From a virus, in IMG/VR virus record IMGVR_UViG_3300007512_002354, positions 1 through 54,584 of that record: 54,584 bases of DNA, one strand, 5' to 3'. The position numbers and the translations under genes are program-made. The notes beneath the pieces are model-generated. The model searched no databases. It saw nothing but the letters and a program-made list of their open reading frames with translations, and was not told the origin of the DNA. Below are positions 1,625 through 41,225 of the stretch, piece after piece (within the stretch, counting starts at the first letter, position 1; every line of letters begins with the position of its first letter).

Positions 1625-1987
1625 ATGTCAAAAAACAAATATACGCCATATGCGGCAAAACCAAAAACTTCAAAACCGTCATCAAAGCTTCTAAATCCAA
1701 AAAGTGGATATAATCCAATATATACTCCACCTGGATCTATTAGTTGGCCCAATGGAATGATTGGTGACTATGATGGAGATATAGATTTCCTAGTAGCAGG
1801 TCCTCCTCTAAAAGATCTACCAGAATTAGGAAAAAACTTTGAGATCATAGAAACAAAAGGTGTATATTACCTTGTAGAGCACAAAGTGCTCTCTATAAGA
1901 AAATGGGTATTAGACACTGCAATTACCTCGGAAGGTATTAAAAACGCCTTCTACGATGCGGATCAATTTTTTGATCCACCAGAATAA
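1625..1987 (+). CDS. Hypothetical protein with N-terminal YTPYAAK motif
   Basis: This 120-aa protein is not recognised. The basic, Ser/Pro/Lys-rich first 40 residues contain YTPYAAK at residues 6-12, nearly identical to the N-terminus of the protein at 10689 (YKPYAAK). The C-terminal half looks folded (FEIIETKGVYYLVEHKVLS...). The gene starts 15 bases after tRNA-Lys with a weak GTGAGA upstream. The shared motif with otherwise unrelated proteins suggests a common interaction or localisation tag (inference). Confidence 0.7.
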   Translation: MSKNKYTPYAAKPKTSKPSSKLLNPKSGYNPIYTPPGSISWPNGMIGDYDGDIDFLVAGPPLKDLPELGKNFEIIETKGVYYLVEHKVLSIRKWVLDTAITSEGIKNAFYDADQFFDPPE

Positions 1988-2003
1988 ATATTAAGGAAAT
2001 AAA

Positions 2004-2096
2004 ATGGCTACACTAACAACTCCAAAAACAGAACAAATTAATATCTATGGAGATGCAATCCATCTCACGGGAGCAGCAATTGGCTACCAAGGATAA
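2004..2096 (+). CDS. Putative 30-aa peptide
   Basis: The ATG is preceded by TAAGGAAATAAA, a good SD context. It encodes 30 residues with an end (GDAIHLTGAAIGYQG) typical of very small phage proteins. It overlaps the first part of the next gene in another frame, so one of the two may be translated by coupling. Confidence 0.4.
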   Translation: MATLTTPKTEQINIYGDAIHLTGAAIGYQG

Positions 2097-6746: not shown

Positions 6747-7148
6747 CTTTCTTAAAAGAAGTTCACCTCTTGCTACATCTCTACTTAAGTATATCTTTCG
6801 TAGTTGAGCTATTAAATCAGTTCTAGGTTTTGCTTTACCGTGCACTCCTCCTGCACCCATATGGCAAACTTTACATAGTGTAATACCATTATTTATGTTA
6901 TAAGCATGTTTAGGTACATAGTATTTAGAAACTATATGATGTGCATGCAATCTTTTCTTTGAACCACAAGAAAGACAAACGAACTTATCTCTATTTCGTA
7001 TAGCAATAGACCAACCAGACAAAATAACTCTATCTAAAGTGTTCTTTTTCTGACTGGTTTTAATATGTCGCAAGTTTCTTTTTTTAGACTTACGCTTTTT
7101 AACCTTACGCTTCATTTTCTTAAAGCGTTTCAAATTTTTAACACTCAT
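6726..7148 (-). CDS. HNH endonuclease
   Basis: The 140-aa protein starts with about 35 very basic residues, then has CLSCG and the HNH core HAHHIVSKYYV with N-N-G-I-T-L-C-KVCH, i.e. a zinc-bracketed beta-beta-alpha-metal fold. The length and lone reverse orientation fit a free-standing homing or mobile HNH endonuclease. The start at 7148 is chosen as the ATG nearest the conserved part outside the opposite SD; no strong SD is seen, so the basic extension could be shorter. It interrupts a run of plus-strand genes. Confidence 0.85.
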   Translation of the reverse strand: MSVKNLKRFKKMKRKVKKRKSKKRNLRHIKTSQKKNTLDRVILSGWSIAIRNRDKFVCLSCGSKKRLHAHHIVSKYYVPKHAYNINNGITLCKVCHMGAGGVHGKAKPRTDLIAQLRKIYLSRDVARGELLLRKLGISSS

Positions 7149-7168
7149 AAAATACCAAGGAAATAAAA

Positions 7169-7396
7169 ATGAATTTACTATATGATGCACTAGTTGCACA
7201 CTTTGATGCCCAGAGACGTAGCGCTCTCGCTACCCTCGAACTATATCTTACCAAACCTGTTTCTGTCCACGCCAATGTAGCGGTACAGGAAGCAGTTGAA
7301 CAAGTTAGTCTTCTTGCAGAGTCAGAAGATGCACTTCGCGTACTGTCTTCAATGGTTAAGCCTCCAGAAGAAACACCTGTACCTGAAGAAGGATGA
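7169..7396 (+). CDS. Hypothetical helical protein, 75 aa
   Basis: Not recognised. AAGGAAATAAAA precedes the ATG. An all-helical protein with a Pro/Glu tail. It uses CGT/CGC arginine and CTC/CTT codons more than its neighbours, a hint of higher expression. Confidence 0.55.
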   Translation: MNLLYDALVAHFDAQRRSALATLELYLTKPVSVHANVAVQEAVEQVSLLAESEDALRVLSSMVKPPEETPVPEEG

Positions 7397-7614
7397 AAGA
7401 AATGAATTGGACTGCAATTATTTCAAAACCCCTAGAAGACACAATTGTTGTTGAAGAGTTTCAAGGGCCTCATGGAAGTTCAGCTGCAGAAAAGCATTTC
7501 AAAGACTATCTTGAAAATAGTGAAAATATCCTTCTAGCTATAATTCCAGGCTGCCATGCAAGTGGAGCACATGTTGTGCAAACTTATTATGTTCCTGAAA
7601 AATTGCTTACCTAA
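7393..7614 (+). CDS. Hypothetical protein, 70-73 aa
   Basis: Not recognised. The start at 7393 overlaps the previous stop (ATGA); an ATG at 7402 with AAGGA 7 bases upstream is equally possible. The predicted sheet-helix-sheet pattern includes GPHGSSAAEKHFKDYL. Confidence 0.5.
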   Translation: MKEMNWTAIISKPLEDTIVVEEFQGPHGSSAAEKHFKDYLENSENILLAIIPGCHASGAHVVQTYYVPEKLLT

Positions 7615-8336
7615 TGGAAAAATCAATATATTTATATGGAGACGACATTGGAAGAGTTGATTATGTTGAACATATGGGCACCGACCTCACTATCGTCAAC
7701 AGTGCCCGCGTTAGTTTTGGTAAACATAAAGAAGAAATAGATAAACAAGATGAACGTCTCATTAATTACCTGGTTAAACACAGGCACACTAGTACATTTG
7801 AACACAACGTTGTTACTTTTCGTTTTGTGGTTCCTCTTTTTGTCAGGTCTCAGCATCATCGGCATAGGACTTGGTCATATAATGAAATATCACGGAGATA
7901 TACTAAAGAGAACTTACAGTTTTACGAACCTGAAGAATTCAGAACACAACACGAATCAAATAGACAAGCCTCCAACACAACTGAACTCTGCAACCCGTTA
8001 ATTTCTTACCCAAGAATTAACTATGCAGCGTTACAAGCTTCTGACGCCCTAAAGGAGCACTCTAGGATTAGTAGAGCGCTATACGAAAGGCTGATGGAAG
8101 CTGGCATTTGTAGAGAACAAGCACGAGGAGTTCTTCCTCAAAACATGTATACCGAGTATTATGGTACAGTAAACTTAAATAATCTATTAAAGTTTATTGA
8201 ACTACGTAGTCACCAAGGTGCTCAATGGGAAATACAAAAAGTGGCTGAAGCTTGCTTAGAAATTGCAACTAGCTTATGGCCAATTGCAGTTGATGCTTAT
8301 AAGAGTGCAAGAAATGAGTTACAAACCTCTACCTAA
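7614..8336 (+). CDS. thyX: Flavin-dependent thymidylate synthase ThyX
   Basis: ThyX makes dTMP from dUMP using FAD, NADPH and methylenetetrahydrofolate. The diagnostic motif RHRTWSYNEISRRY (RHRxxSxNxxSxRY) is present at about residues 82-95, and QARGVLPQNMYTEYYGTVNLNN downstream corresponds to the usual C-terminal active-site region. At 240 aa it is full length. It starts by overlapping the previous stop. With the RNR, MazG and dCMP deaminase it forms the phage nucleotide supply set. Confidence 0.97.
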   Translation: MEKSIYLYGDDIGRVDYVEHMGTDLTIVNSARVSFGKHKEEIDKQDERLINYLVKHRHTSTFEHNVVTFRFVVPLFVRSQHHRHRTWSYNEISRRYTKENLQFYEPEEFRTQHESNRQASNTTELCNPLISYPRINYAALQASDALKEHSRISRALYERLMEAGICREQARGVLPQNMYTEYYGTVNLNNLLKFIELRSHQGAQWEIQKVAEACLEIATSLWPIAVDAYKSARNELQTST

Positions 8337-8607
8337 ATTTCTATACATTGGTAAATCTCCAATAGAGGGCTTCGGGTTATTTACCTCTGAAGATATAAAA
8401 GCGAACACTGTTCTCGGCGTTTCACATGTACAGGATATGAGATTCAGTAATGGATATATAAGAACACCCTTAGGGGGCTTCTACAATCATTCTGATAAAC
8501 CAAACTGTGAAACATATGCTGAGGGTGATTTAATTATGCTAAGAACTATCAAAAATATTTTAGCAAAAGAAGAACTAACTGCCCTTTACACTCTTTATAA
8601 AATATAA
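8314..8607 (+). CDS. Minimal SET-domain protein
   Basis: The 97-aa protein shows SET-domain hallmarks: SPIEGFGLFTSEDIKANTVLG at the start, GGFYNHSDKPNC (the NH-S pseudoknot motif) and EELTALYTLY at the end. Family members are SAM-dependent lysine methyltransferases, and short viral and phage SET proteins of about 100-120 aa exist. Pre- and post-SET cysteines are absent, so activity is uncertain. It overlaps thyX by 23 bases. The target could be a host or phage protein. Confidence 0.75.
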   Translation: MSYKPLPKFLYIGKSPIEGFGLFTSEDIKANTVLGVSHVQDMRFSNGYIRTPLGGFYNHSDKPNCETYAEGDLIMLRTIKNILAKEELTALYTLYKI

Positions 8608-8625
8608 AGAAAAATCGCTATAGGG

Positions 8626-8660
8626 AAACCAAAAATCGGAAAAAATAATATTGCAGAATT
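8626..8660 (+). repeat. Intergenic repeat, copy 2
   Basis: Same element as 2357-2390 (AAACC then GAAAAAATAATATTGC, A in place of G, then GAATT). Followed by an AT-rich segment with short inverted repeats (GGAAAAA/TTTTTCC) and then the leader GGAATTTCAA before a TTG start. Candidate promoter or leader. Confidence 0.55.
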
Positions 8661-8697
8661 AGGAAATTGATTTTTCCAATTCTTTTTGGAATTTCAA

Positions 8698-8940
8698 TTG
8701 AAAAAATTATTTAGGCTCGCAAAACAATCAGTACTTTCTTATATACTATCTAATATTATTACTGGAATAGAGGGAGGAATAGGAATAGTACTACTTCATT
8801 TTGTTTGGGAATATAGTTTCGAAACAAGTATGGCTATAGTAATACCCATCTTATATCCAGTGCTAATTATACAAATGATAATCATTTACTTGGTTTTAAA
8901 TAAACTTGGAACACAATCAAAAGAAATTACTACTGATTAA
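8698..8940 (+). CDS. Membrane protein, probable TTG start
   Basis: About 80 aa with two hydrophobic helices. TTG at 8698 is chosen because the leader GGAATTTCAA preceding it is identical to that before the ATG of the 2395 gene; the TTG at 8686 lacks an SD. Function unknown. Confidence 0.5.
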   Translation: MKKLFRLAKQSVLSYILSNIITGIEGGIGIVLLHFVWEYSFETSMAIVIPILYPVLIIQMIIIYLVLNKLGTQSKEITTD

Positions 8941-9139
8941 AGCTTTGGTATGGCGATTCTTCATAGCTATACCAATGGGCATAATCATAACTTATTTATA
9001 CATCGGAAAACTTTGGGAAACAATTGAGTTCACCATATTGATCAATGTGATCAGTACTATATTTTACTATCTATTTGATCTCTTCTGGTGTAAAATAACA
9101 GGGAAAAGAAATGAAAGAAAAAATACAAAAAACAATTAA
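8906..9139 (+). CDS. DUF2061-like membrane protein
   Basis: The sequence KALVWRFFIAIPMGIIITYLYIG then LWETIEFTILINVISTIFYYLFDLFW matches the pattern of DUF2061 small membrane proteins (KaisWR..a...T....w..tG....a......e...k...Y..HER.W), without known function. The frame opens with TTG at 8906 inside the previous gene. Its end overlaps the Fe-S carrier genes, so it is in the same operon. Confidence 0.55.
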   Translation: MEHNQKKLLLIKALVWRFFIAIPMGIIITYLYIGKLWETIEFTILINVISTIFYYLFDLFWCKITGKRNERKNTKNN

Positions 9140-9365
9140 TGAAGACATAAATCCAATGTTAGCTCAGCATCATGGATCGGTTTCTATTGACAAAATAGAA
9201 GTAAAAGAAGCCAGTTACAGGGTATATCTCACATTCGAAGGCTTATGTCAGGGATGTCCATCAGCATTTACTGGCACCCTTAAAATGATTGAGTTCCATC
9301 TAAGAGAGGAGCTAAACCTACCAGGACTTACAGTTATAAATAGTGAAGGTATGCAATGGGAATAA
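9111..9365 (+). CDS. Nfu-type Fe-S cluster carrier (NifU C-terminal domain)
   Basis: The 84-aa protein is a single NifU-like domain with the CxxC cluster ligand motif in EGLCQGCPSAFTGTLKMIE. Such domains assemble and deliver [4Fe-4S] clusters. It overlaps the next gene, an A-type carrier, by 10 bases. Likely clients in this phage are the family-4 UDG and the Cas4-like nucleases. Confidence 0.9.
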   Translation: MKEKIQKTINEDINPMLAQHHGSVSIDKIEVKEASYRVYLTFEGLCQGCPSAFTGTLKMIEFHLREELNLPGLTVINSEGMQWE

Positions 9366-9685
9366 AATTAACTGAACAAGCAAAAACAAATATATTAAAG
9401 ATTAAAAAGAAAACTGCACCAAATGAAAAATATTTGAGAGTTGGATTGAAGTCAGGCGGATGCTCTGGGTTCTCATATTCTTATGAGTTCACGAACATTA
9501 CCAATGAAAACGACAAACTCTTTAAATTTGGTGATCTCACAATCTGTATAGATAAGAAATCATATTTTTATTTAAACGGATTAACAATTGACTATAAAGA
9601 AGATCTTTTTAAATCTGGCTTAGAATTCAAAGCCCCAAATGCTACAAGATCTTGTGGCTGTGGGGAATCCATAGCTTTCGAATGA
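9356..9685 (+). CDS. A-type Fe-S carrier (IscA/ErpA/HesB family)
   Basis: The 109-aa product contains the three conserved cysteines: GGCSGF at about residues 34-39 and SCGCGESI near the C-terminus. It carries [2Fe-2S] or [4Fe-4S] clusters. The pairing with Nfu in an overlapping operon is consistent with the cellular ErpA-NfuA relay. Whether it belongs to the IscA, ErpA or SufA subgroup cannot be told by eye. Confidence 0.92.
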   Translation: MGIKLTEQAKTNILKIKKKTAPNEKYLRVGLKSGGCSGFSYSYEFTNITNENDKLFKFGDLTICIDKKSYFYLNGLTIDYKEDLFKSGLEFKAPNATRSCGCGESIAFE

Positions 9686-10107
9686 TCCGCATTTATACAG
9701 ACGGAGCATACAGGAAGTTACTTGATTCTGCTGGTGCTGGAGTATTGATTATATGGGAGGATGGAAAACTATCCTCTTATTGTAAATACTTAGGCGACAC
9801 AACAAATAATCGTGCAGAATTACAAGCAATAAAGTATGGATTAACTATAGCTCTGATAGAAACAGGAGGATCTACTCCTGTAAAAGTATTATCTGATTCA
9901 ACATATGCTCTTGGTATTGCTGGCAATACTATGAAAGCAAAAGCTAACAAAGAGTTAGCTGAAGAAACACGAGCTATAGTTTCAGAATTCAGTGATATAA
10001 AATTTGTATGGGTAAAAGGTCATTCAAAAGATAGGTACAATCGATTGGCAGATCTGTTAGCTAATGTAGCTATAGATCAACACCTAGGTTTGGATACAAA
10101 GTATTAA
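9682..10107 (+). CDS. rnhA: Ribonuclease HI
   Basis: RNase HI cleaves RNA in RNA-DNA hybrids and would remove primers or R-loops. Catalytic residues are visible: D in IYTDGAYR, E in NRAELQAI, D in VLSDSTYA and D in RLADLLAN, plus GHS before the last Asp. Length 141 aa is normal. The start at 9682 (ATGA overlap with the previous stop) is preferred over the longer frame at 9652. It ends just before a TTAC hairpin and T-run. Confidence 0.95.
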   Translation: MIRIYTDGAYRKLLDSAGAGVLIIWEDGKLSSYCKYLGDTTNNRAELQAIKYGLTIALIETGGSTPVKVLSDSTYALGIAGNTMKAKANKELAEETRAIVSEFSDIKFVWVKGHSKDRYNRLADLLANVAIDQHLGLDTKY

Positions 10108-13363: not shown

Positions 13364-13609
13364 ATGAATATACCTAATGAAGTGATGCTTATTTTTGCAT
13401 TCATTGGTTTTATTTCCAGTGCTTACTTCCTACCAATACTGGTAACTTATATATTTTCTTGGATAAAATTTAAGACTCCTCCAAAGACAATTCAAGAGGA
13501 GAAAAACGATTTATTACAAGATGAACTAGACAGATTAAACCAAAAATTATCTCAATTAGAGAAAGAAAATGAAGATATGACTCGTGCAGTCATCCAACAA
13601 CTAAGGTAA
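13364..13609 (+). CDS. Single-TM protein with coiled-coil cytoplasmic domain
   Basis: 81 aa: an N-terminal TM helix (LIFAFIGFISSAYFLPILVTYIF) followed by a coiled coil (LLQDELDRLNQKLSQLEKENEDM). The architecture resembles an inner-membrane spanin or an anchor protein, but no lysis cassette is nearby. It starts 2 bases after the preceding stop. Confidence 0.55.
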   Translation: MNIPNEVMLIFAFIGFISSAYFLPILVTYIFSWIKFKTPPKTIQEEKNDLLQDELDRLNQKLSQLEKENEDMTRAVIQQLR

Positions 13610-13614
13610 TTAAT

Positions 13615-14085
13615 ATGAACACTTATACCGTTGTCTTAAGGGGCAACCCCGTCAACAGTACGGAAACCTGTACTGCGACTTATGATGATGTTGTAGCCTC
13701 TAACAGTCTCCATGCTGAAGAAGAAGCTGCTGCTCTAGCATCTTATGATGGCTATGAAAATGTTTCTATTGTGAGTGTAAACCAAAATCCCACTAGCACT
13801 AGAAGTTATACTCCCTATGATCGCCATACTTATCAGACCAACGTATCATCTACACAAAACTATACTTATCAGGATGAACCCTCCTACACTCCATATGGTG
13901 GCGTCAGTGTTGCAGAGAGTGAACCCACTGAGGATGGTAGCAACTACCAGCCCTATGCAAGCGTGAATACAGCTACATCTGCAAGCTCAGCTCCTGAGTC
14001 TTGGCACTCAACGATGAGTAATGGCTATTGTCCATATCGCTCCTTCCGGAATGCGTTGCCTTTCGGATATAAGCCTACTACTTGA
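13615..14085 (+). CDS. Tyr/Thr/Ser-rich low-complexity protein with repeated YxPY motifs
   Basis: The 156-aa protein has a folded-looking first 55 residues, then a disordered tail rich in T, S, Y, P with YTPYDR, YTPYGG, YQPYAS, YCPYRS and a final GYKPTT. It holds the highest density of the Y-x-P-Y motif found in this window. This could be a multivalent hub that binds the same partner as the single-motif proteins (inference). Function unknown. Confidence 0.65.
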   Translation: MNTYTVVLRGNPVNSTETCTATYDDVVASNSLHAEEEAAALASYDGYENVSIVSVNQNPTSTRSYTPYDRHTYQTNVSSTQNYTYQDEPSYTPYGGVSVAESEPTEDGSNYQPYASVNTATSASSAPESWHSTMSNGYCPYRSFRNALPFGYKPTT

Positions 14086-14103
14086 ACCCAGGATTAGGAA
14101 AAG

Positions 14104-14147
14104 ATATGATTGAAGGTAGGGGGATATCCCTCCTACCTCAATCATAT
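14104..14147 (+). promoter_or_regulatory. Long hairpin in the lon-like leader, with a possible leader peptide
   Basis: A near-perfect inverted repeat of about 20 bp per arm (outer ATATGATTGA with TCAATCATAT, centre GGGATATCCC) ends 17 bases before the gene start. An ATG at 14106 with AGGA upstream opens a 29-codon frame that runs through the hairpin and overlaps the lon-like start. It may be a terminator for the upstream gene or a translational attenuator. Confidence 0.55.
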
Positions 14148-14163
14148 GGCTTGGGGAGAGTAT

Positions 14164-15927
14164 ATGGAGCTAATACCATTACAAATAATATCTAAGGATC
14201 AAGGCGTTCCGATACCTAATGTTGCCTTCACTTTTAGTATACCTTTAATAAGTGAAAGTACAAAATTTGAAACTTCAAGAATAGAAATTAAAGAAACATA
14301 TGTTGACGAAGTATTTGTAATAGGAATTTCAGAAGAAGACGAACTTAGCCTTAATCTCTGCCTAACACCAGAAGAAACGTTAGATTCTATTGGTGGAATA
14401 GGTGTACTATGCATTGCCAAGAATATAGAAAGATCTAATACTAAGATAGAGATCTTATGTCATCCAATATTTAGAGTAAAAGTCAATAAACTTTTTGCTA
14501 AATCAAGCAATCTTTCTGTTGAATTTACACGCTTGCAAGACGCATTCTTGCCAGGCGAACATAGCCTTGCTGCAGATCTTAAACAACTAATTGTACATAT
14601 GGTTGTTAATAAGAATCTTGTAACAGAAAGAGTAAAGCAAAGAATAGAAGCAGCTAATGATTTAATTAAGATAACTAATCTTTTAGCTGCATCATTGTCT
14701 TTAACTAATACTGAAAAAAATATATACATACAAACTGAAAATAATATAGAAAGAATAAATATTATTATTCAGAAATTAATTTACAGACTCAATAGAGATA
14801 AAGATAACAAGTTAAAGAAAAAGAAATCTCAAAATATAAATCTAGATACTCTGAAGCCTTTTCTTGAACAAATTATTGCTCAACAAGATCATGAAGAAAA
14901 TGGGTTCCAAATCTTAGATGAAGAAAATGATAACTCTTCTCAAATCCCTCATCACATCCTAAAAAGAATTAAGAAAGAAAGAGATCGTTTAGAAACTCTT
15001 CCTCCCCAATCTCTTGAGTACCAAACGGTAATGGAATACCTGTCATGGATTAATGATATCCCATGGACAAAGTATTCTTACAAAGAATTAGAGTTAAAAA
15101 AACTAACCGCTATACTCGATGAGACACACTATGGGTTAGCTGATGTTAAAGAACACATCTTAGAACACATGACTATAGAACACATAACTAAATCATCAAA
15201 AGGATCTGTATTGTGTTTTATAGGGCCGCCAGGGACTGGAAAGACCAGTATAGCTAAACAAATTGCTAAGGCTACCAACCGATCAATTATTAAAATTGCA
15301 CTCGGAGGCATGCATGATGAATCAGAAATCAGAGGTCACAGACGCACATATGTGGCAGCTCGGCCTGGAAGAATAATTGTTGGACTCAAAGATGCAGAAA
15401 CTATGGATCCTCTTTTTCTTCTAGACGAAGTTGATAAAATGGATAGCAAAAGAGGAGATCCAACTTCTGCTTTACTAGAACTTTTAGATCCAGAACAAAA
15501 TCCAGAATTTATTGACAGGTATATCGAAATACCAGTTGACTTATCAAGAGCAATGTTTATTTGCACTGCAAATTACATTGAAAATATACCGCCACCATTA
15601 TTAGACAGATTAGAACTAATAACATTTAGAGAATATAAAAAGGCGGAACGATTAATAATCTTAAGAGATTTTTTAATACCTAATATTAAAGAATCCTATC
15701 AATTAAACGAGGCAAATATTACGATTACAGATGAAGCTATCGATTACATAGCAAAAACAGTATCAATTAGAAGTATTGAAAAGCTTATGAAGAAATTATT
15801 TAGAAAAGCAGCAGTAAGAATATTTGTGAGAGATGAAGAATCAGTTATTATTGATGCTAATTTTGTCAAATCAACGACAAGTGTAGAAGACCTTACCTTA
15901 GAGAAAAAAATAGGATTCACTCATTAA
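14164..15927 (+). CDS. Lon-like AAA+ ATPase lacking the protease domain
   Basis: The 587-aa protein has a Lon N-terminal substrate domain (MELIPLQIISKDQGVPIPN...), a helical linker, then a full AAA+ module: Walker A GPPGTGKTS, the Lon signature GGMHDESEIRGHRRTYV, Walker B LFLLDEVDKM, sensor-1 FICTANYIE, Arg-finger LLDRLE and a sensor-2-like SIRSIEKLMKK. Bacterial Lon is near 780 aa; here the chain stops just where the Ser-Lys protease domain should start, and the sequence after the stop does not continue it. It may unfold proteins for another protease, remodel complexes, or poison host Lon hexamers. Start 14164 is set by GGGGAG 5-6 bases upstream. Confidence 0.88.
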   Translation: MELIPLQIISKDQGVPIPNVAFTFSIPLISESTKFETSRIEIKETYVDEVFVIGISEEDELSLNLCLTPEETLDSIGGIGVLCIAKNIERSNTKIEILCHPIFRVKVNKLFAKSSNLSVEFTRLQDAFLPGEHSLAADLKQLIVHMVVNKNLVTERVKQRIEAANDLIKITNLLAASLSLTNTEKNIYIQTENNIERINIIIQKLIYRLNRDKDNKLKKKKSQNINLDTLKPFLEQIIAQQDHEENGFQILDEENDNSSQIPHHILKRIKKERDRLETLPPQSLEYQTVMEYLSWINDIPWTKYSYKELELKKLTAILDETHYGLADVKEHILEHMTIEHITKSSKGSVLCFIGPPGTGKTSIAKQIAKATNRSIIKIALGGMHDESEIRGHRRTYVAARPGRIIVGLKDAETMDPLFLLDEVDKMDSKRGDPTSALLELLDPEQNPEFIDRYIEIPVDLSRAMFICTANYIENIPPPLLDRLELITFREYKKAERLIILRDFLIPNIKESYQLNEANITITDEAIDYIAKTVSIRSIEKLMKKLFRKAAVRIFVRDEESVIIDANFVKSTTSVEDLTLEKKIGFTH

Positions 15928-30131: not shown

Positions 30132-30710
30132 ATGGGATCAGAAGATTACAACACGTTGCTACACGCAATACTCAAACAGGCCATGGATGACTATATAAAA
30201 TTACAGCATCCAAAATTTAGAAAAAAGAAATATTTACAAGAAGCATTCGATAGCGCTGTTGATATGTTTTTTGATTCAGAATTCAGTATGCTTCACCTAA
30301 CAAATGATATGGGTGAAGAAATGAATCTAAAAGATATGATAACTCAATTACTCGATGATGATAGAGCCAATCTAGATAAAATGAGAAAACATATTATTGA
30401 AGGCGCCAGATCTTTTTGGGAAACAAAACTAGTGAACACTCTTTACATACCTAAAAGCTTTATTTACGACGGACATGTTTATATAGTACAACACACAGAA
30501 GAACTCGATCCAGAAATAGATTTTGAAAAAAAGATTATTACTTTAAATCGAAAAGAAGAAGATTCTGAAAATCAAGAAAGATTTGTCTTAGTGGCTTTGC
30601 AAGTAATGCTATATCATGAAGACATAGGTATCAGTCAAAAGAATATAGAGAAACTAGGTAAAGCACTATTTCGGATGCTTCGAATAAACTCATGCTTTAC
30701 TGGTGACTAA
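30132..30710 (+). CDS. Hypothetical protein, 192 aa
   Basis: Not recognised. Helical first half (residues 1-100), then strands around PKSFIYDGHVYIVQH and a helical tail. Its stop overlaps the convergent nucleotidyltransferase gene by 4 bases. Confidence 0.55.
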   Translation: MGSEDYNTLLHAILKQAMDDYIKLQHPKFRKKKYLQEAFDSAVDMFFDSEFSMLHLTNDMGEEMNLKDMITQLLDDDRANLDKMRKHIIEGARSFWETKLVNTLYIPKSFIYDGHVYIVQHTEELDPEIDFEKKIITLNRKEEDSENQERFVLVALQVMLYHEDIGISQKNIEKLGKALFRMLRINSCFTGD

Positions 30711-31135
30711 GAAAACTTATTGAATTTCTCAAAAGCACTGTCAGGTAAAACCTCAACCAGTTCTGTAGAGTTATATTCTTTGTCAGCTGGATGAATGATT
30801 AGCTTTGCACCGACAGCCTTGACGGTGCTAGCTTCATACAGTGTATCTTCAGAATAATCTGGCCCCTTAATATAGTACTTAGGCTTTAAAGTCCTAATTA
30901 ATTTAGAAGGCTCGTCTTCTATAAAGACAACTACATCCTTAACAAAAATATTATTTCTCAATACATAAGCTCTGTCAACAAGAGGTACTGCATTGTCTCC
31001 ATACTTCTTTTGTAAGTATGGATCTGCATTAATGCCAACTGTGACCTCTCCATACTTACTGGCAAACTCTAATAAACGAACATGTCCAGCATGAACGATA
31101 TTAAAAGTACCAGTAACTAATACTTCTACAGACAA
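30707..31135 (-). CDS. Cytidylyltransferase-type nucleotidyltransferase (HldE C-terminal-like)
   Basis: 142 aa. GTFNIVHAGHVRLLEFA is the HxGH nucleotidyltransferase signature after a GxFD/N strand; GINADPYLQKKYG and KYYIKGPDYSED continue the HldE C-domain pattern, and NSTELVE matches the closing STxLI motif. Such enzymes attach a nucleotide to a sugar phosphate, e.g. ADP-heptose synthesis. The partner sugar kinase is encoded at 45004. The TTG at 31135 has GGAG with 6-base spacing; a TTG at 31147 is possible. Reverse strand; divergent to the next gene. Confidence 0.82.
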   Translation of the reverse strand: MSVEVLVTGTFNIVHAGHVRLLEFASKYGEVTVGINADPYLQKKYGDNAVPLVDRAYVLRNNIFVKDVVVFIEDEPSKLIRTLKPKYYIKGPDYSEDTLYEASTVKAVGAKLIIHPADKEYNSTELVEVLPDSAFEKFNKFS

Positions 31136-31146
31136 GGGGAACTCCA

Positions 31147-31671
31147 ATGATGGAAATAGAAGCAGGATACGTTTTCCTGTTCGTGATAATTACGCTTCTT
31201 GGATTGCTTCTCTATTTTATACAAAAAACTAACTTCCTAAAGAGAGAGATTAAACAAATATGTGTTAATAATAACATGTTGAGTGCTAAATTTACCTCTT
31301 TGGAGAGGGAATATAACATAAAATATGAATCTTGGCGTACAACTCAAGAGCGAAAAGTAAGAAAAGACGCAACAAAAAGATCTCGTAACATAATGAGAGG
31401 ACAGGCCACAGAGCACTTGGCCCCGTATATGTTTACAAATAAATTAAATCCGAAAGACTTTAGATTTCTTGGGAACCCAATAGATTATATTGTGTTCTCT
31501 GGATGCTCAGATGTCACCGATGGTGTATCTGACACAATCGAAAAAGTTATATTAATAGATATTAAAACAGGTACAAGTAAACTAAACAAAGTCCAACGCA
31601 GGATAAGAGATGCGGTAAAAGAAGGAAGAGTTGAATTCTTAACCTATAACCCTGATAAAACAAATGACTAA
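31147..31671 (+). CDS. Membrane-anchored Holliday-junction-resolvase-like endonuclease
   Basis: 174 aa with an N-terminal TM helix (residues 8-24), a coiled helix, and a PD-(D/E)xK-type core: RGQATEHLAPYM, DFRFLGNPIDYIVFSG, then VILIDIKTGTSKLNKVQRRIRDAV. This layout matches the Endonuclease_Holl family (predicted nuclease related to archaeal resolvases). The catalytic series would be E in ATEHL, D in NPIDYI and D-x-K in LIDIKTG. GGGGA precedes the ATG. Confidence 0.8.
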   Translation: MMEIEAGYVFLFVIITLLGLLLYFIQKTNFLKREIKQICVNNNMLSAKFTSLEREYNIKYESWRTTQERKVRKDATKRSRNIMRGQATEHLAPYMFTNKLNPKDFRFLGNPIDYIVFSGCSDVTDGVSDTIEKVILIDIKTGTSKLNKVQRRIRDAVKEGRVEFLTYNPDKTND

Positions 31672-33816: not shown

Positions 33817-35106
33817 ATGAAAGATTTTGTACATCTTCATGTTCATACGGAGTACTCCCTTTTAGATGGTATCAACCGAGTCAAAACATTACCTGAGCAT
33901 ATAAAGAACCTCGGGCAACGTTCACTCGCGATTACAGATCACGGAAATGTAAGCGGATCTTATAGATTTTATAAATCTTGTAAAAAAGTAGGGATACAAC
34001 CAATTATAGGTATGGAAGCCTACTATACTATCAACGATAGAACAGTTAGAGAAGTAGACGACTTAGGAGAATCTTATTACCACCTGATACTAATAGCTCT
34101 AAACAATAAAGGACTACACAACTTATATAAGTTATCAAGTTTCGCCTATACGCAAGGCATGTATAGGAAGCCAAGACTTGATGATATCCTACTCGGTGAA
34201 TATGGCGAAGGCATTTGTGCAACAACCGCCTGCCTTGGATCCAGGATATCCCAACTAATATTAAAAGACAGAGTAAAAGAAGCTGAAATGATGATTGATC
34301 ATCATAGAGCTTTGTTCTCTAATAGATTCTTAATAGAGCTACAACTCCACGAAATGGAAGATCAACAAATAGTAAATAAAGTTCTTATGGAAATAGCATT
34401 GAGAAAAAACATCCCAATGGTATTAACTAATGACTGTCACTATACTCATGAATTAGATAAACAACTACACGAAGCTGCTCTATGCATGCAAACTAAGACA
34501 ACACTATCCAATGAGAATAGATTCACTTTTGGAGAAATAGATGTCCATGTTGCTTCCCATGATTGGATGAAAGCAAAAGCTGAAGAGCAAGGAATACCCT
34601 ACGAAGCAATTCGGAATACAGTACATGTAGCAGACATGGTGGATTCTAACGATTACTTCACTGATAGAATGAATCGCTATCCTAGGTATAAAGATGTTCC
34701 AGAGAATCTAAAGTCTTGGCAATTTTTAGAGATAGAAGCAAAGCAAGGCCTGTATAATAGATTCAAAGGTATGCCACCTGACAGCTACAAAAGCAGATTA
34801 GACGAAGAGCTTACTACAATTAAGAAGATGGGCTTCTCAGACTACATGCTTATTGTTGCACAGTTTATGAACGGTGCAAGGGATGTAGGAGTGCTACATG
34901 GACCCGGAAGGGGTTCTGCAGCAGGCTCATTGGTTGCTTATGCATTAAAAATAACCGAAGTAGATCCAATTAAATATGGATTGCTCTTCGCTAGATTTTT
35001 AAACAGTGGCAGAGGAGCTACTCCTCTAATATTTGATCAAGAGCTAGCAAGTAAAATTGATTGCAGTAAGCATCATCCTAACGGCAAGTGCCCCTCCTGT
35101 GAGTAA
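33817..35106 (+). CDS. dnaE: DNA polymerase III alpha, fragment 1 (PHP and part of palm)
   Basis: 429 aa. Starts with a PHP domain (HLHVHTEYSLLDG, ITDHGNVSG) and continues through the palm-entry region (YKSRLDEELTTIKKMGFSDYMLIVAQFM, GVLHGPGRGSAAGSLVAYAL). It ends KYGLLFARFLNSGRGATPLIF...CSKHHPNGKCPSCE, i.e. before the catalytic PDIDID motif, which is on the next fragment. The break is in what looks like a lineage-specific insertion after RFLN. The final codons lie in a perfect hairpin. AAAGGAGACCGAC precedes the ATG. It must assemble in trans with fragment 2. Confidence 0.92.
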   Translation: MKDFVHLHVHTEYSLLDGINRVKTLPEHIKNLGQRSLAITDHGNVSGSYRFYKSCKKVGIQPIIGMEAYYTINDRTVREVDDLGESYYHLILIALNNKGLHNLYKLSSFAYTQGMYRKPRLDDILLGEYGEGICATTACLGSRISQLILKDRVKEAEMMIDHHRALFSNRFLIELQLHEMEDQQIVNKVLMEIALRKNIPMVLTNDCHYTHELDKQLHEAALCMQTKTTLSNENRFTFGEIDVHVASHDWMKAKAEEQGIPYEAIRNTVHVADMVDSNDYFTDRMNRYPRYKDVPENLKSWQFLEIEAKQGLYNRFKGMPPDSYKSRLDEELTTIKKMGFSDYMLIVAQFMNGARDVGVLHGPGRGSAAGSLVAYALKITEVDPIKYGLLFARFLNSGRGATPLIFDQELASKIDCSKHHPNGKCPSCE

Positions 35107-35115
35107 CAGGAGGGG
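35091..35115 (+). terminator. Hairpin spanning the dnaE fragment 1 stop
   Basis: CCCCTCCTGT and ACAGGAGGGG form a perfect 10-bp stem around GAGTA; the stop TAA (35104-35106) lies at the loop edge. There is no immediate T-run, although TTTTT occurs 15 bases later. It could end transcription or slow ribosomes at the fragment end. Confidence 0.55.
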
Positions 35116-35179
35116 ATACTTAACAACCGTTTTTACACCTAGCTACTGGTCGCAACATCCATCTTTTCATACTACACCT

Positions 35180-35560
35180 CTACCAAAGTATTAGAGTCAT
35201 AACACCCGTCAGAGCAGTATCAGTCACAGTACCACACTCAAAAGACTCAATACCCAAGCCCTCTGGGGTGCGGGGAAGAGTTGAATCTAAAGTAATTGTA
35301 GCAATATTTGCTGCAGTAGGTAGCAGCCACTTTAAAACGGTAACATCACACTGACTCTCTCTCGGAGATACGACTCTCCGAAGATTGTTGAGAACAATAT
35401 CAACTTCATCATTTGTTGGATCTACTATTACTGCTTGTATACCTCTTGCAGGTCGACCAAGTATTGCCTTGCAATCGATTTGATTTCCCGAAGAAACGTC
35501 GACTGTAGCACTTTGTAAAGTATTATAGCGACCGGTTGAAGAACTTGAAGAAAAACCCAT
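35180..35560 (-). CDS. Hypothetical protein in dnaE break 1
   Basis: 126 aa, beta-rich, starting MGFSSSSSTGRYNTLQ, with ITLDS and GVMTLILW strands; no family recognised. The Ser/Thr/Gly-rich, strand-heavy composition resembles small virion (decoration or fibre-base) proteins, as in the other dnaE break, but this is inference. AGGAG with 8-base spacing precedes the ATG at 35560; a GTG at 35569 is less likely. Its SD and that of dnaE fragment 2 share one palindromic GGAGCACTCC site. Confidence 0.6.
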   Translation of the reverse strand: MGFSSSSSTGRYNTLQSATVDVSSGNQIDCKAILGRPARGIQAVIVDPTNDEVDIVLNNLRRVVSPRESQCDVTVLKWLLPTAANIATITLDSTLPRTPEGLGIESFECGTVTDTALTGVMTLILW

Positions 35561-35573
35561 TTGGAGCACTCCT

Positions 35574-37166
35574 ATGATTAAACAAATTAAAAAATACTAT
35601 ATACCTGATCGTTTATCTCAAGTAGACAGTGACTTCCTTTCTTTCGAGGAGGAAATGATCTCCTCTACAGATCAGGAAAGAATACTAACACTATTAAATA
35701 ACAATATGAAAGCAAAAATCTCTAACCCTTACAATAGTATCATATTATATATATGCGGTCTAAGCAATGAATTCAACTTTCAGACAGAAAGATCTGAAAC
35801 TATTGACGGTAGTCCACCTGATATCGATATTGATCATGACGCTTTAGAACGTGAAAAAGCAATTGAATGGGCTGTTGAATACTGGGGTAGAGATCAAGTC
35901 GCCAACATAATTACACACGGAACTTTTAAGCCAAAATCATTAGCAAGATCTTATTACAGGGTTACTGAAGGCCCAACTACAGAGCTGAGTGATATCTTAA
36001 AGATGATACCTCCTCCCAAATACGGGAGAGAAGCAACTCTTGAAGAAATCACAACAGCACATCCTGAATTAAAAGAAGATAAAACATACGACAGCTTTTA
36101 CTCAGCTGCAGAAAAGCTTGAGAATATGGTATCAAACTTTGGAATCCATGCCGCAGGTATTGTTATATCCAATTTTCCAATTTCAGATGTTGTTCCAACC
36201 TGGAAAAACGGAAAAGCAGACTTGATCACCCAGTTTGATAAAAACGAAGTAGAAGAACTAGGCTTAATCAAATTCGATTTCCTAGGAATTGATACACTAT
36301 CTATTATAAAAGAAGCTCTCAGCTTGATAAAGCAAGAGAAAGATTTGGAAATAGATCCATATGCAATTGAAGATGAAGATCCAAAAACCTATACTATGAT
36401 GGAACACGGATTACTAACTGGAGTATTCCAGATGGAAACTTCAGGTATGGCAAAGAGACTAATAAAAAGAATTAAGCCAAAAAATATTAACGAGCTAAGC
36501 GACATTAGTGCACTCAATAGACCTGGGCCTTTACAGGCCCAGCTTGACGAACAATATATATTAAACAAAAACAACGGATACCCACCAGACGATCTACCAT
36601 CAGAACTTGCTAAAGTTCTTGAAGGAAGCTATTGGACACTAGTATACCAAGAGCAAGTAATGGCAATTTGTTCTGACCTTGCAGGATTCACAGAGAAAGA
36701 GTCTGATGATATCAGAAGAGCAATGGGAAAGAAGGATGCAAAAGTGCTAAACGCTTATAAAGAGAAATTCCTAAAAGGAATCTCAGAAAACGGAGCACTT
36801 AGCACCAGCTATAGTGAAGACCTATGGGAATCTCTAGTTGGTTTTGCAGACTATTGTCTTGAAGGAAGCACAAGAATACTAACCATTGAAAATGGACCAG
36901 TATCTGTTCGTGAAATAGTTGAAAATAAGCAAAAGGTAACTGTACTATCTGTAGATCAAGATGATATGATAGTTGCTCAAGAGATTAGTCAATGGCATAA
37001 TAATGGCCACAAAGATGTATACAGGTATACACTGTCAAATGAATTAGAAATTATTTGTACAGAAGATCATAAATTTATGACTGAAGATGGAGAAATGAAA
37101 ACCATAGATGATATCTATAGTAACGATTTGTCAATCTCAGTTAAAAAATTAATCTATTTATCGTAG
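35574..37166 (+). CDS. dnaE: DNA polymerase III alpha, fragment 2 fused to N-terminal split intein
   Basis: 530 aa. Residues 1-80 are a poorly conserved lead; then GSPPDIDIDHD supplies the catalytic Asp pair, IITHGTFKPKSLARSYYR, IHAAGIVIS, IKFDFLGIDTL (third catalytic Asp), GLLTGVFQMET, DISALNRPGPL, YWTLVYQEQVMAI and LVGFADY. At residue 428 the sequence turns into an intein: CLEGSTRILTIENG to the end (103 residues). The junction LVGFADY|C is the same site as in cyanobacterial DnaE split inteins. Translation needs the RBS GGAG at 35563. Confidence 0.94.
   Translation: MIKQIKKYYIPDRLSQVDSDFLSFEEEMISSTDQERILTLLNNNMKAKISNPYNSIILYICGLSNEFNFQTERSETIDGSPPDIDIDHDALEREKAIEWAVEYWGRDQVANIITHGTFKPKSLARSYYRVTEGPTTELSDILKMIPPPKYGREATLEEITTAHPELKEDKTYDSFYSAAEKLENMVSNFGIHAAGIVISNFPISDVVPTWKNGKADLITQFDKNEVEELGLIKFDFLGIDTLSIIKEALSLIKQEKDLEIDPYAIEDEDPKTYTMMEHGLLTGVFQMETSGMAKRLIKRIKPKNINELSDISALNRPGPLQAQLDEQYILNKNNGYPPDDLPSELAKVLEGSYWTLVYQEQVMAICSDLAGFTEKESDDIRRAMGKKDAKVLNAYKEKFLKGISENGALSTSYSEDLWESLVGFADYCLEGSTRILTIENGPVSVREIVENKQKVTVLSVDQDDMIVAQEISQWHNNGHKDVYRYTLSNELEIICTEDHKFMTEDGEMKTIDDIYSNDLSISVKKLIYLS
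36855..37163 (+). other. Split intein, N-terminal half (DnaE type)
   Basis: 103 residues: CLEGSTRILTIENG (block A), VTVLSVDQ, QWHNNGHKDVYRYTL, ICTEDHKFMTEDG (block B, with TxxH) and a Lys-rich end. Length and motifs match the N-halves of cyanobacterial split DnaE inteins. The first Cys is the nucleophile. It should trans-splice with the half at 39972. Confidence 0.92.
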
Positions 37167-37176
37167 GAGGCTAGAT

Positions 37177-37617
37177 ATGCCAAAAATTAGACAGGTATCA
37201 GGCTCAGTGGCGCTCAGAGGGCGCCTTTATCATGAGCAATCAGCTGTTGACAACACTGCTTGGACTTGGTCTGAATTCACCGTACCTACCGAAGGTATAA
37301 TTCATCGAGTCCGAGTTGTTCAACAAAATAAAGCAGATGAACTCGAAGTAATGGTTATGGAAAAAGATCCAGACGATGAAATGCCTTTAGCAGATGAAGA
37401 CCATCCACCCCTTTCCGTTATACTTAAATATGCTTCATCAGCTGGTCAATTAGACAGCGAAGAGTTTACATATTTTAAAGTGCCCCAAGACAGCGACCTT
37501 ACAGACGGAGAAGGTGCAGATATGAAGCGCCATGGATCTCTATTCGTAGGTCTTAAATCAAATAACGGGGCGGCACAACCGGTTAAGATTTTGATTGACT
37601 TTGAAGTAGTAGCATAG
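37177..37617 (+). CDS. Probable virion protein 1 in intein gap
   Basis: 146 aa, beta-rich (VSGSVALRGRLYHEQSAV, GIIHRVRVVQQ, SLFVGLKSNNGAAQPVKILIDFEVVA), acidic. No family recognised, but the composition and the neighbouring LamG protein suggest a virion or head-decoration protein. Starts 10 bases after the intein stop; GGAGG precedes the ATG. Confidence 0.55.
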   Translation: MPKIRQVSGSVALRGRLYHEQSAVDNTAWTWSEFTVPTEGIIHRVRVVQQNKADELEVMVMEKDPDDEMPLADEDHPPLSVILKYASSAGQLDSEEFTYFKVPQDSDLTDGEGADMKRHGSLFVGLKSNNGAAQPVKILIDFEVVA

Positions 37618-37629
37618 AAGGAGGGTACA

Positions 37630-38829
37630 ATGGGTTATTATAGTAAAAAAATAGCAACATCAAGAGTTGTCCCTCCCGCCCCCTCGGGGGGAGGGGGAGG
37701 CAATCCTGATCTTGTTCCCCCTCTTGCAGAGATAGGTCCACACCATGAGAACGCTGGCACAACTAGTAAAAGCGTTTCATTTAATGCCTTTACTGGTGGC
37801 TCTGGCTCTCATACTGTAACTGGAAGCTTGATTAAACCTGGTGGATCGCCAGCAACACTATCTGGTACTGGATTGTCCTACACTATTAACAATATGAGAG
37901 ATGGAGAGTCCTATAGACTGACAGCTTATGCAACAGATGACGGTGACGGACAGAAAGCGCAAACAAGTGTAGTCGTTTCTGTGGAACAAGCAGTAACAAC
38001 CACTCCACCATTCCAAATGGTAAGCGGTGATCTAACTTGGAAAACCCATATATCCGTTGACAGTCTCAGCAATGTAGACATGGCTAACCAAGTCTCAGCA
38101 CTTCCACTGTTGGCACCAAGCTCAGCATATGGTTCCATTAAAATAACTGACGCAACTTCAGATTCATATATAGACACTGGCGTAGATATTGGGAACACAA
38201 CCGATACGACTATTTCCATCTGGGTGAAAACCAGTGAGAATGATGGAACTATAATGTCAACAGATGAGGGTGGCTATGACTGGACTCTAGGAATGGACAA
38301 CGGCAACTGGAGATTTGCAAATGGTAGCAATTGGCATAATACGAATATAGCTTACATTCATGACCAATGGTATCACCTATCAGCTGTATTTGATGTTGCC
38401 GCTAGTACTCTATATTTCTATATCGATGGAGTACAGGTTTGGACAAAAAGTATTACTACCGATGTCAATACAGGTAGCTGGTATATAGGCAGGAGCCCTC
38501 ACTATGCAGCCAATAGATTCGAGGGAGAAGTTGCAGGAGTAACAATATGGGACAAAGCGCTTACTGGACCAGAAATTACCGACATATATGGAGGCGGTTA
38601 CACATTTGATGTAACAACAAATTCAGGCAACTACGCATCATCTGCTGATGTTCTATCTCATATCAAAAGGGGAGAAATTCCTAATAGCAGGGGCTATAAC
38701 AAAAATCCAGATACCGGAGAAGAAACCCCTCTTGGTGCCGAAGCGGCATTACAAACTTTAGACATGCCGGTTGATACTGGCAACACAGTTATCGGCCCTC
38801 AAACATTTTTAGGAACATCTGTTCCGTAA
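37630..38829 (+). CDS. LamG-domain protein, probable tail or fibre component
   Basis: 399 aa. Residues 20-125 resemble an Ig/fibronectin-like domain (GTTSKSVSFNAFTGGSGSHTV). Residues about 155-320 are a LamG/concanavalin-like lectin: SDSYIDTGVDIGNTTDTTISIWVKTSEND, WYHLSAVFDVAASTLYFYIDGVQV, VAGVTIWDKALTGPEITDIYGGG. Such domains bind glycans and are common in phage tail fibres and adhesins. A Pro/Gly-rich linker is near residue 22. GAAGGAGGGTACA precedes the ATG. Confidence 0.82.
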   Translation: MGYYSKKIATSRVVPPAPSGGGGGNPDLVPPLAEIGPHHENAGTTSKSVSFNAFTGGSGSHTVTGSLIKPGGSPATLSGTGLSYTINNMRDGESYRLTAYATDDGDGQKAQTSVVVSVEQAVTTTPPFQMVSGDLTWKTHISVDSLSNVDMANQVSALPLLAPSSAYGSIKITDATSDSYIDTGVDIGNTTDTTISIWVKTSENDGTIMSTDEGGYDWTLGMDNGNWRFANGSNWHNTNIAYIHDQWYHLSAVFDVAASTLYFYIDGVQVWTKSITTDVNTGSWYIGRSPHYAANRFEGEVAGVTIWDKALTGPEITDIYGGGYTFDVTTNSGNYASSADVLSHIKRGEIPNSRGYNKNPDTGEETPLGAEAALQTLDMPVDTGNTVIGPQTFLGTSVP

Positions 38830-38841
38830 TAGGAGTAAATT

Positions 38842-39954
38842 ATGCCAGTTATACCATTAAATGATTTAACATGGAAACAATCAGCACTAACAAACCACTC
38901 AGTCTCAGCTGTAGGAAAGCTAAAAGCCATAAGAGATATTGTAGATGCGATAGACTCAAACGGCGGCGACTGGGAAGTTAAAGACTTCTGCCTTGAAGGT
39001 GAAACCAAATTCAATGGTGGCGCCAATACTGCATCTGGTAACGGAACGCTTATCATAGGCAATAAAAACAGTAGTGCTATACCTAACCAAAGGATTGTAT
39101 TTGGTGGCAATTCAGCCGGAAAGAACATGAACAATTATGGCTGCCCACCACACAATGAGTCGTCTACAAATCAAACCAGTGAGCAAGTATTTGGCGGCTA
39201 CGCACCGGATGGATTTGGTGTTGATGCTGGCGCAATTCAGCCAAGCGGAAACACTTTAACAAGCAGCGATGATGAAGCATGGTATACTCAAGACCCATCT
39301 GGCAACGGCTCTAAGCCCTGGACAAAGTATGCCCTTGTTACGTCTCAGCCAGGAGATCAAACCTGGATAATTCACTCTGAAGATATATTGTGTATAGGGC
39401 ATAGAAAAGTTTCTGAAAACAAGTGTCATCTATGGGCAGCTGGACGCATACTTGAAGCAGCAGATACGGAAAGTGGCTGGACCGATTGGGATAAAGGCAT
39501 ACCAGGTATGTTCGCTGGAGGTGGAGAAGCAGGCAATGCTTCTTACTGGACTCCTAGCAACTTCTGGAACCTAGGCTTCAATACCAATGGAGGCTTTATG
39601 AATGGCTCTAGTGTCCAAAATGAACTTAAAAAACCTGTATTCGCAATATTGTCACCAGAGAATGAGAACTTACACGAAAAAATAAGAAGAATTCACAACG
39701 AAACTCTTCTTGAACCAAACGGTCTTGGCTATCTAACAACCACAAGCGGAAAGCAAGTCTTTCTGCCAGTCCATTATTGTAGAGCAGAAGGATATTATCA
39801 ATATATAGGCAAGCTCCGCAACATGGGCTATGCTAATGATGCCATCTGCAGGCAACAGCTACATGACAACAATGATTATTTACACGTTATATATTTCTCA
39901 AGGAGTACTACTACAGCTGGAGACGCACTAGCTTTTGTAAATCCAGCACCATAA
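38842..39954 (+). CDS. Probable virion protein 3 in intein gap
   Basis: 370 aa, rich in Gly, Asn, Ser, Trp, not assigned to a family. Features such as SGNGTLIIGNKNSSAIPNQRI, GYAPDGFGVDAGAIQPSGN and YWTPSNFWNLGFNTN look like tail-fibre or appendage beta structure. AGGAGTAAATT precedes the ATG. It ends 17 bases before the C-intein gene. Confidence 0.6.
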   Translation: MPVIPLNDLTWKQSALTNHSVSAVGKLKAIRDIVDAIDSNGGDWEVKDFCLEGETKFNGGANTASGNGTLIIGNKNSSAIPNQRIVFGGNSAGKNMNNYGCPPHNESSTNQTSEQVFGGYAPDGFGVDAGAIQPSGNTLTSSDDEAWYTQDPSGNGSKPWTKYALVTSQPGDQTWIIHSEDILCIGHRKVSENKCHLWAAGRILEAADTESGWTDWDKGIPGMFAGGGEAGNASYWTPSNFWNLGFNTNGGFMNGSSVQNELKKPVFAILSPENENLHEKIRRIHNETLLEPNGLGYLTTTSGKQVFLPVHYCRAEGYYQYIGKLRNMGYANDAICRQQLHDNNDYLHVIYFSRSTTTAGDALAFVNPAP

Positions 39955-39971
39955 TCGCACGGAGGATCTTA

Positions 39972-40076
39972 ATGAAGATCATATCTAGAGAGTATGTTGG
40001 GGAGAGCGAAGTCTATGACATTGGCCTTCCCGATATACACAACTTTATTCTAGAAAATGGAACCGTCGCTAGCAAC
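39972..40076 (+). other. Split intein, C-terminal half (DnaE type)
   Basis: 35 residues (KIISREYVGE...DIHNFILENGTVASN) ending in SN before Cys. The penultimate residue is Ser, not His, as in cyanobacterial DnaE inteins. The block F/G pattern matches the N-half at 36855. Confidence 0.92.
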
Positions 40077-41225
40077 TGTTTTAATAAAGCTCATAGCGTT
40101 AGCTATAGTATGCTAACATATATATCTGCCTACCTTAAGGCAAACTATGCTTCAGAATTTTTCTGTGCACTAATGACTGTTAGATCCAAGTCCCTACAAC
40201 CTAAAACTTGGGCAACAAAAGCACCTGAATATATTCAAGAGGCACAAGCATTTGGAGTAGAAATACACCCGCCTTCGATAAATTCATCAAACCTCGGATT
40301 TAGTATTAGAGACGAAGATGTTTACTTTGGCCTAAATGCAATTAGAGATGTAGGTAAAACTGCTGCTCGGACGATAGTCCGAGCGAGAGGAGAGGCACCC
40401 TATAAAAGTGTCTTCGACTTTCTCCAAAGAGTAAACCTACAAAAAGTAACAACCAAAACATTCATAAGCCTTGTCAAGGCTGGAGCGTTTGATATGTTGG
40501 GGTATGATCGCAGTGATCTTATCCAAAACTCTCAAGCACTATATGATTATATTAGAGATGTAGTAGAATATGAGCAAAGAAAAATTGATCTTGTTGTTAG
40601 AGAAAAGGAAATTGAAGACTTGACTGTAGTCATTGACAAAAGAAATATTTTGCGCAAAGAACTAAAGAAAATAGAAAAAGAACTTAAGAAAGTAGAAGAC
40701 AAAAATTTATTATCAAGGAAGTTAGAAGTAGAAGAAGAGCTTTTTCCTCTAGAACAAATGAATCTAAGAAGAAAGCCAAGGCTTAAACCTAAACAAGAAC
40801 CACAAAAACCTGAACTAGTCAGATCCGAAGAAGTTGAAATAAATATTCATCAGATAATGGAACAGGCACACTATATCGGTTGCTATATTGGGACTCACCC
40901 AGCACAACTAATAAATAGTTCAGGCACAGTTAAGATAAAGAACCTTTATAAAGGGCAAAAGACATATGTATGTGGAGTCATAAATTCACTAAAAGTTATA
41001 CGCACTCGAAAGGGTCACGAAATGGCTTTCTGTGAAATTGACGACTCGACCAGTACAGCTGAGGTAACTATTTTTCCAAGAACTTGGAAGAATGCAAAAC
41101 TAAATAATATCTCAGAAAACAAACTGGTAAGAATGAAAATAAAAACAGAGCAAGAAGAGCCAGTAATCAAGCTTATTGCAGACTCAATTGTGGTCTATCA
41201 GGAGAATATAGATGAAATGGCGTGA
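39972..41225 (+). CDS. dnaE: Split intein C-half fused to DNA polymerase III alpha fragment 3
   Basis: 417 aa. Residues 1-35 are the C-terminal intein half (KIISREYVGESEVYDIGLP, HNFILENGTVASN), ending at Asn-35|Cys-36. Cys-36 starts the extein CFNKAHSVSYSMLTYISAYLKANYASEFF, the usual DnaE finger/thumb entry region. Later residues contain an HhH-like KVTTKTFISLVKAGAFDML, a coiled-coil linker and an OB-fold domain (VKIKNLYKGQKTYVCGVINSL). CACGGAGGATCTTA precedes the ATG. After trans-splicing, fragments 2 and 3 would make a chain of about 809 residues. Confidence 0.94.
   Translation: MKIISREYVGESEVYDIGLPDIHNFILENGTVASNCFNKAHSVSYSMLTYISAYLKANYASEFFCALMTVRSKSLQPKTWATKAPEYIQEAQAFGVEIHPPSINSSNLGFSIRDEDVYFGLNAIRDVGKTAARTIVRARGEAPYKSVFDFLQRVNLQKVTTKTFISLVKAGAFDMLGYDRSDLIQNSQALYDYIRDVVEYEQRKIDLVVREKEIEDLTVVIDKRNILRKELKKIEKELKKVEDKNLLSRKLEVEEELFPLEQMNLRRKPRLKPKQEPQKPELVRSEEVEINIHQIMEQAHYIGCYIGTHPAQLINSSGTVKIKNLYKGQKTYVCGVINSLKVIRTRKGHEMAFCEIDDSTSTAEVTIFPRTWKNAKLNNISENKLVRMKIKTEQEEPVIKLIADSIVVYQENIDEMA

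Follow-up and report, generated by a model that had tools for sequence, protein, structure and literature searches.

In a 54.6 kb phage record from IMG/VR (IMGVR_UViG_3300007512_002354; the whole stretch of 54,584 nucleotides is hereafter designated the window), the DNA polymerase III alpha gene, dnaE, examined at positions 33817-41225, occurs as three separate pieces. This locus is best explained, with a probability of about 0.75, as a replicative polymerase gene that has been fractured and houses a tail-fibre (host-recognition) cassette where a homing endonuclease is usually found, with trans-splicing of the protein at its second break and association of the chains at its first. Fractured genes with split inteins are already known, reportedly from the work of Dassa and colleagues in 2009; their gap usually holds a homing endonuclease, and the common interpretation is that they are traces of such a nuclease. 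New here are the fibre cassette in the gap and the second, intein-less break. No prior report of such an arrangement was found in the literature searched, which is only part of the whole literature.

Genetic organization of dnaE and its split intein

A preliminary description of this DNA had placed dnaE in three separated frames, which domain profiles bore out for each piece. The first fragment, F1 (33817..35106, plus strand), comprises the PHP domain, the N-terminal part of the palm and a short Cys/His-rich tail. It matches the Pfam families PHP (3e-45) and DNA_pol3_alpha (3e-35, profile positions 2-102), as well as a PHROG DNA polymerase family (2.5e-123), and is 77% and 60% identical to its counterparts in the related phages L003 and L004, respectively. 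The frame of F2, including an N-intein, spans positions 35574-37166 (plus strand). Based on Pfam matches (DNA_pol3_finger, 7e-47; DNA_pol3_alpha, 1.5e-35, profile positions 100-260) and alignments, its extein (35574..36854, plus strand) is composed of a linker head, the catalytic PDIDID motif, the remaining palm and the fingers, and ends with SLVGFADY. The frame of F3, including a C-intein, spans positions 39972-41225 (plus strand), and its extein (40077..41225, plus strand) begins with CFNKAHSVSY and contains the HHH and OB domains (Pfam HHH_6, 4e-27; PHROG DNA polymerase, 1.5e-50).

The second break is bordered by the two halves of an intein, 2805 nt apart. The 103-aa N-intein (36855..37166, plus strand) begins with CLEGSTRILT and has TEDH as its block B, and the 35-aa C-intein (39972..40076, plus strand) ends with HNFILENGTVASN, the same kind of end being found in nine C-inteins. 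With splice junctions at LVGFADY|C and VASN|CFN, the insertion site FADY|CFN is that of the cyanobacterial DnaE intein (FAxY|CFN). Among solved structures, the nearest relatives of the N-intein are DnaE inteins of the cyanobacterial type: the best PDB chain (1.3e-20) is Npu by its sequence, and another entry, 1zd7, matches at 6e-17. In alignments, the N half of the window is 43% identical to that of Npu, and the N halves of 12 phages are 34-46% identical to it over about 93 residues. The intein pair of the window retains the splicing residues C1, TEDH, HNF, SN and C+1, while C1 and T..H are kept in all 12 phage N halves, and HNF and A[S/A]N|C in the nine C halves examined. The bridge proposed in the preliminary description, a 103-aa and a 35-aa intein half at the cyanobacterial DnaE site, is thus upheld by its junctions and by homology at about 1e-20, and none of the nucleophiles has been lost.

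Among relatives, where an intact dnaE had been suggested as a check, close relatives were found to have a fused, intein-free gene. Uninterrupted alleles read GFADYCFNKAHS (FADYCFNKAHS) in L053 and L059, and GFADYCFNKSHS (FADYCFNKSHS) in L324. Since these three phages read through without an intein, the intein of the window sits exactly at a naturally occurring empty site. Trans-splicing of F2 to F3 by this cyanobacterial-type split intein would restore the empty-site sequence ..GFADY-CFNKAHS.., and we infer that such splicing takes place in vivo. A tree that groups all split-intein phages in one clade was not rejected (p-AU 0.064), and the distribution of the intein may reflect either its loss in the L053/L059 group or one gain. 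No group I or group II intron was detected at either break of the window, Rfam giving no match with an E value of up to 1 across positions 34900-40200.

Content of the intein gap in the window and across the clade

In the window, the second break holds 2.8 kb with three genes on the dnaE strand, which would be translated from their own starts. The preliminary description had named one of them a LamG protein, and this is clearly the case for the 399-aa product of the second gene (37630..38829, plus strand), a LamG/concanavalin-like lectin that matches Pfam Laminin_G_3 at 2.2e-20 (73.8 bits, cut-off 27.6). The other two had been described as virion-like. For the first gene (37177..37617, plus strand; 146 aa, beta-rich), this is suggested by homology and position, its homologues in L049, L053, L059, L138 and L324 tying it to fibre cassettes; its AlphaFold model (pLDDT 71) gave low-TM matches to jelly-roll-like viral coat proteins and phage baseplate proteins. 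For the third gene (38842..39954, plus strand; 370 aa), no Pfam or PHROG family was matched, and a stretch around DDEAWYTQD gave a 26-aa match (62%) in L397, a different phage, where the genes next to the matching one resemble baseplate genes by eye. None of the three proteins matched PHROG; no relatives of the 146-aa and 370-aa proteins were found in 50,697 phage records, nor of the 399-aa protein in IMG/VR. The gap proteins are putative components of the virion.

Scans of IMG/VR revealed that the split intein is shared by about 15 distinct phages, three of which occur in two assemblies each. The gap was fully readable in 11 phages, with sizes of 2.1-9.3 kb, and all 11 gaps contained fibre- or appendage-type genes, including those for collagen-like fibres of about 900-1280 aa and companion proteins of about 1100-1210 aa. 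In L326 and L327, small tail-like genes are also present and number up to about 16. Profiling of the 69 proteins encoded in these gaps identified four collagen, one LamG and two peptidase M15 matches in Pfam, and gap proteins of the relatives matched PHROG tail-fibre families. Many of the small gap proteins have no family, and calling them "fibre-type" is based on sequence character and company. On these sequence comparisons, the arrangement is clade-wide and no one-off. The odd layout might, taken alone, suggest a broken, decayed or misassembled dnaE, but the frames are open and every polymerase and intein motif is kept across these phages, which makes this explanation scarcely credible; misassembly, a concern raised at the outset, and chance are both excluded because the layout recurs in about 15 phages, with three in two assemblies each.

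Neither the gap genes of the window nor the 69 gap proteins matched a homing-nuclease family in Pfam. The sensitivity of this search is demonstrated by LAGLIDADG matches that the same library flagged in the interrupters of L061, L063, L067 and L068. The lack of a detectable homing endonuclease, implied for the window in the preliminary description, extends to its relatives, whose gaps hold clear tail-fibre genes. A homing endonuclease in the gap is a usual but not obligatory trait of fractured genes, and here none was detected. The gap could be a neutral relic, left by a mobile split intein that lost its endonuclease and filled by chance recombinants that were tolerated, in which case the interleaving would have no function. 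Such a history has a real chance of being correct, if well below an even one. In other phages, inteins at neighbouring sites are accompanied by LAGLIDADG or HNH-like nucleases, and fibre cassettes also lie near dnaE at places without an intein, which implies that they can be accommodated without one. On the other hand, the content of all 11 readable gaps is of the fibre or appendage type, neither metabolic nor nuclease genes being recognised there, and the cassette stays close to dnaE in intein-free relatives.

The first break and the gapA gene

The first break falls within a clade-specific palm linker, about 100 aa in length, that is flanked by RFLN and PDIDID and lies just before the catalytic aspartates. 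This linker forms part of one chain in L067, is encoded by overlapping frames without an insert in L112, and is absent in L062 and Streptomyces phage Navo. An intein was considered for this break and rejected, as no N- or C-intein motif was seen and the head of F2 resembles the linker sequence of L067 and L112; Rfam detected no RNA family at this position either. F1 and F2 are most likely separate chains that would associate non-covalently. Being also present in the intein-less L004, L053, L061, L063, L138, L139, L142 and L329, the first break is more widespread than the second, and is judged to be the older. The Cys/His-rich tail of F1 (35061-35103 in the window), which has a CxHSH motif in many relatives, is possibly involved in metal binding or in F1-F2 contact.

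The sole gene in this break, gapA (35180..35560, minus strand), is antisense to dnaE and encodes a small beta-sandwich protein of about 126 aa with an LGRPAR motif. AlphaFold predicts this sandwich with a pLDDT of 81; the fold matches of the model were weak, jelly-roll- or galectin-like, and none was confident. Among the genomes examined, the gene was found at the first break in 13 and in three more; its alignment is poor in conserved stretches. The 13-bp spacer between the divergent start codons of gapA and F2 (35561..35573) carries GGAGCACTCC, with a Shine-Dalgarno-like GGAG for each strand. At the other end, where F1 and gapA converge, the F1 stop codon is spanned by a perfect hairpin, CCCCTCCTG-TGAGTAA-CAGGAGGGG (35091..35115; -26 kcal/mol, z -5.8), which is possibly a two-way terminator. 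Of 13 other genomes examined, six also have a strong hairpin at this point, of unrelated sequence.

These features raise the question of regulatory coupling, in which the interleaving of polymerase and virion genes, together with the antisense gapA, would time or limit polymerase synthesis late in infection. The orientation of gapA at the first break, the divergent starts about 1-65 bp apart in most genomes checked, and the strong hairpins at convergent ends (seven of 14 genomes, counting the window) are in line with this proposal. However, the cassette in the intein gap of the window is on the dnaE strand, relatives without gapA exist, and both the late-promoter signal TATAAATA and sigma-70-like sites occur at chance level, so that such coupling appears improbable.

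Several other genes were observed in this break. L050 has an 858-aa protein there that is not virion-like (7332-9908), L142 a minus-strand gene that is cytosine methyltransferase-like by eye, between gapA and F2 (13492-14603), and L004 a patatin-like protein (6825-7688, minus strand; GGGARG and GNSIG by eye) among structural-type genes.

Turnover and relocation of the cassette

Gap genes were also found elsewhere in relatives, one of the checks suggested for this locus. The family of the 146-aa protein occurs in the intein gap of the window and L049, in the first break of L138 (plus strand) and L059 (minus strand), and just before F1 in L004; in L053 and L324, it lies upstream of dnaE with replication genes on either side. 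Likewise, L049 has a 331-aa family in its intein gap that L053 carries upstream of dnaE. In intein-free relatives with a fused dnaE, the fibre cassette is found in the first break or between neighbouring replication genes. In L053, where the fibre cassette is surrounded by replication genes and lies about 6 kb upstream of dnaE, a second gapA copy (1665-2048, minus strand) stands at its head.

The window and L003 have a mean dnaE identity of 66% and share none of the three gap genes. L003 and L049, a fairer pair because the extra length of the window inflates the denominator of its flanks, have 10 of 14 flanking genes in common but not one of four gap genes. By these comparisons, turnover is much faster in the cassette than in the dnaE pieces, and the cassette has been relocated between a few positions near dnaE. 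In two relatives of 161 kb, virion genes form a block about 70-80 kb long that is opposite in strand to dnaE; a terminase was identified in both, and the portal, sheath and baseplate genes in G013. Because this main block is separate and on the opposite strand, the gap genes represent a detached appendage module within the replication region of phages with contractile tails.

Overall, these data suggest a core gene that encloses a rapidly changing module for host recognition, and dnaE may serve as a conserved bracket for cassette exchange. More tentatively, the fractured polymerase might be a selectable bracket: recombination in the conserved dnaE pieces would swap host-range fibre genes, the split intein would let the polymerase tolerate cassettes of several kilobases, and selection on dnaE would purge faulty exchanges; we regard this as less likely than not. 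Several points weigh against a fractured dnaE that houses a fibre cassette. The 370-aa protein has no family, and the 146-aa protein relies on homology by position and weak fold hints; the first break of the L050 group holds other kinds of genes and is not restricted to virion-type ones; and the comparison of turnover rests on few pairs, for which fast evolution of gap genes in place could suffice. With a split intein retained and host-recognition-type genes in its gap, this clade has a single locus for both an essential replication gene and an adhesion module that changes rapidly. It provides a natural setting in which to ask why split inteins persist, and indicates where the host-range genes of these phages may be sought.

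Comparison with known inteins and introns

The closest parallels are fractured genes with split inteins, a described phage case being the PolB gene of Pseudomonas phage MIJ3, in which an HNH homing endonuclease lies in the gap between the halves (PMC6892783). As in that fractured gene, an essential replication gene is encoded by separate open reading frames with facing intein halves and foreign genes in the gap. In contrast to MIJ3, no nuclease is detectable in the gap here, which holds a fibre cassette with as many as about 16 genes, and there is a second break, without an intein. The intein shares with the Npu and Ssp DnaE split inteins the same protein, the same FAxY|CFN site and the same block residues. 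Whereas the cyanobacterial halves are encoded at distant chromosomal loci (PMC7765530), those of the phages lie at a single locus, on either side of 2.1-9.3 kb of phage genes. One possibility is that cyanobacterial DnaE split inteins descended from such phage loci. In any case, the widely used Npu/Ssp DnaE intein gains diverse phage relatives, which are possible new trans-splicing tools.

Inteins in the same short DnaE stretch are also found in Rhodococcus phage Grayson, L112, L067 and L068. They differ by their position, 4 or 6 residues downstream, and are contiguous or, in L067 and L068, split around a LAGLIDADG nuclease gene. Other phages have a second DnaE split intein at GRG|S (L068, 7201-13566; L069, 7353-11244). 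In L068, the GRG|S gap contains a TnsA-like open reading frame (a weak match, below the Pfam cut-off), followed downstream by the gap with the LAGLIDADG nuclease gene. The sister phages L004 (11183-11511), L061 (9735-9950) and L063 (11953-12189) carry group I introns in F2, as detected by Rfam, with LAGLIDADG open reading frames adjoining those of L061 and L063. The same gene is interrupted there, but splicing is at the RNA level; dnaE is therefore a target of both introns and inteins.

Other observations

A scan of bacterial genomes for the host gave dnaE as its sole match (33-38% identity), which was apparently cellular. In the window, a cytidylyltransferase-like gene (30707-31147, minus strand) opposes the replication operon at a conserved place, next to which the fibre cassette has been relocated in L053 and L324. 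Finally, the ribonucleotide-reductase-like gene of L215 (G013:C1:55151-59332) encodes 1393 aa, compared with 671 aa in the window, which suggests the presence of one or more inteins.
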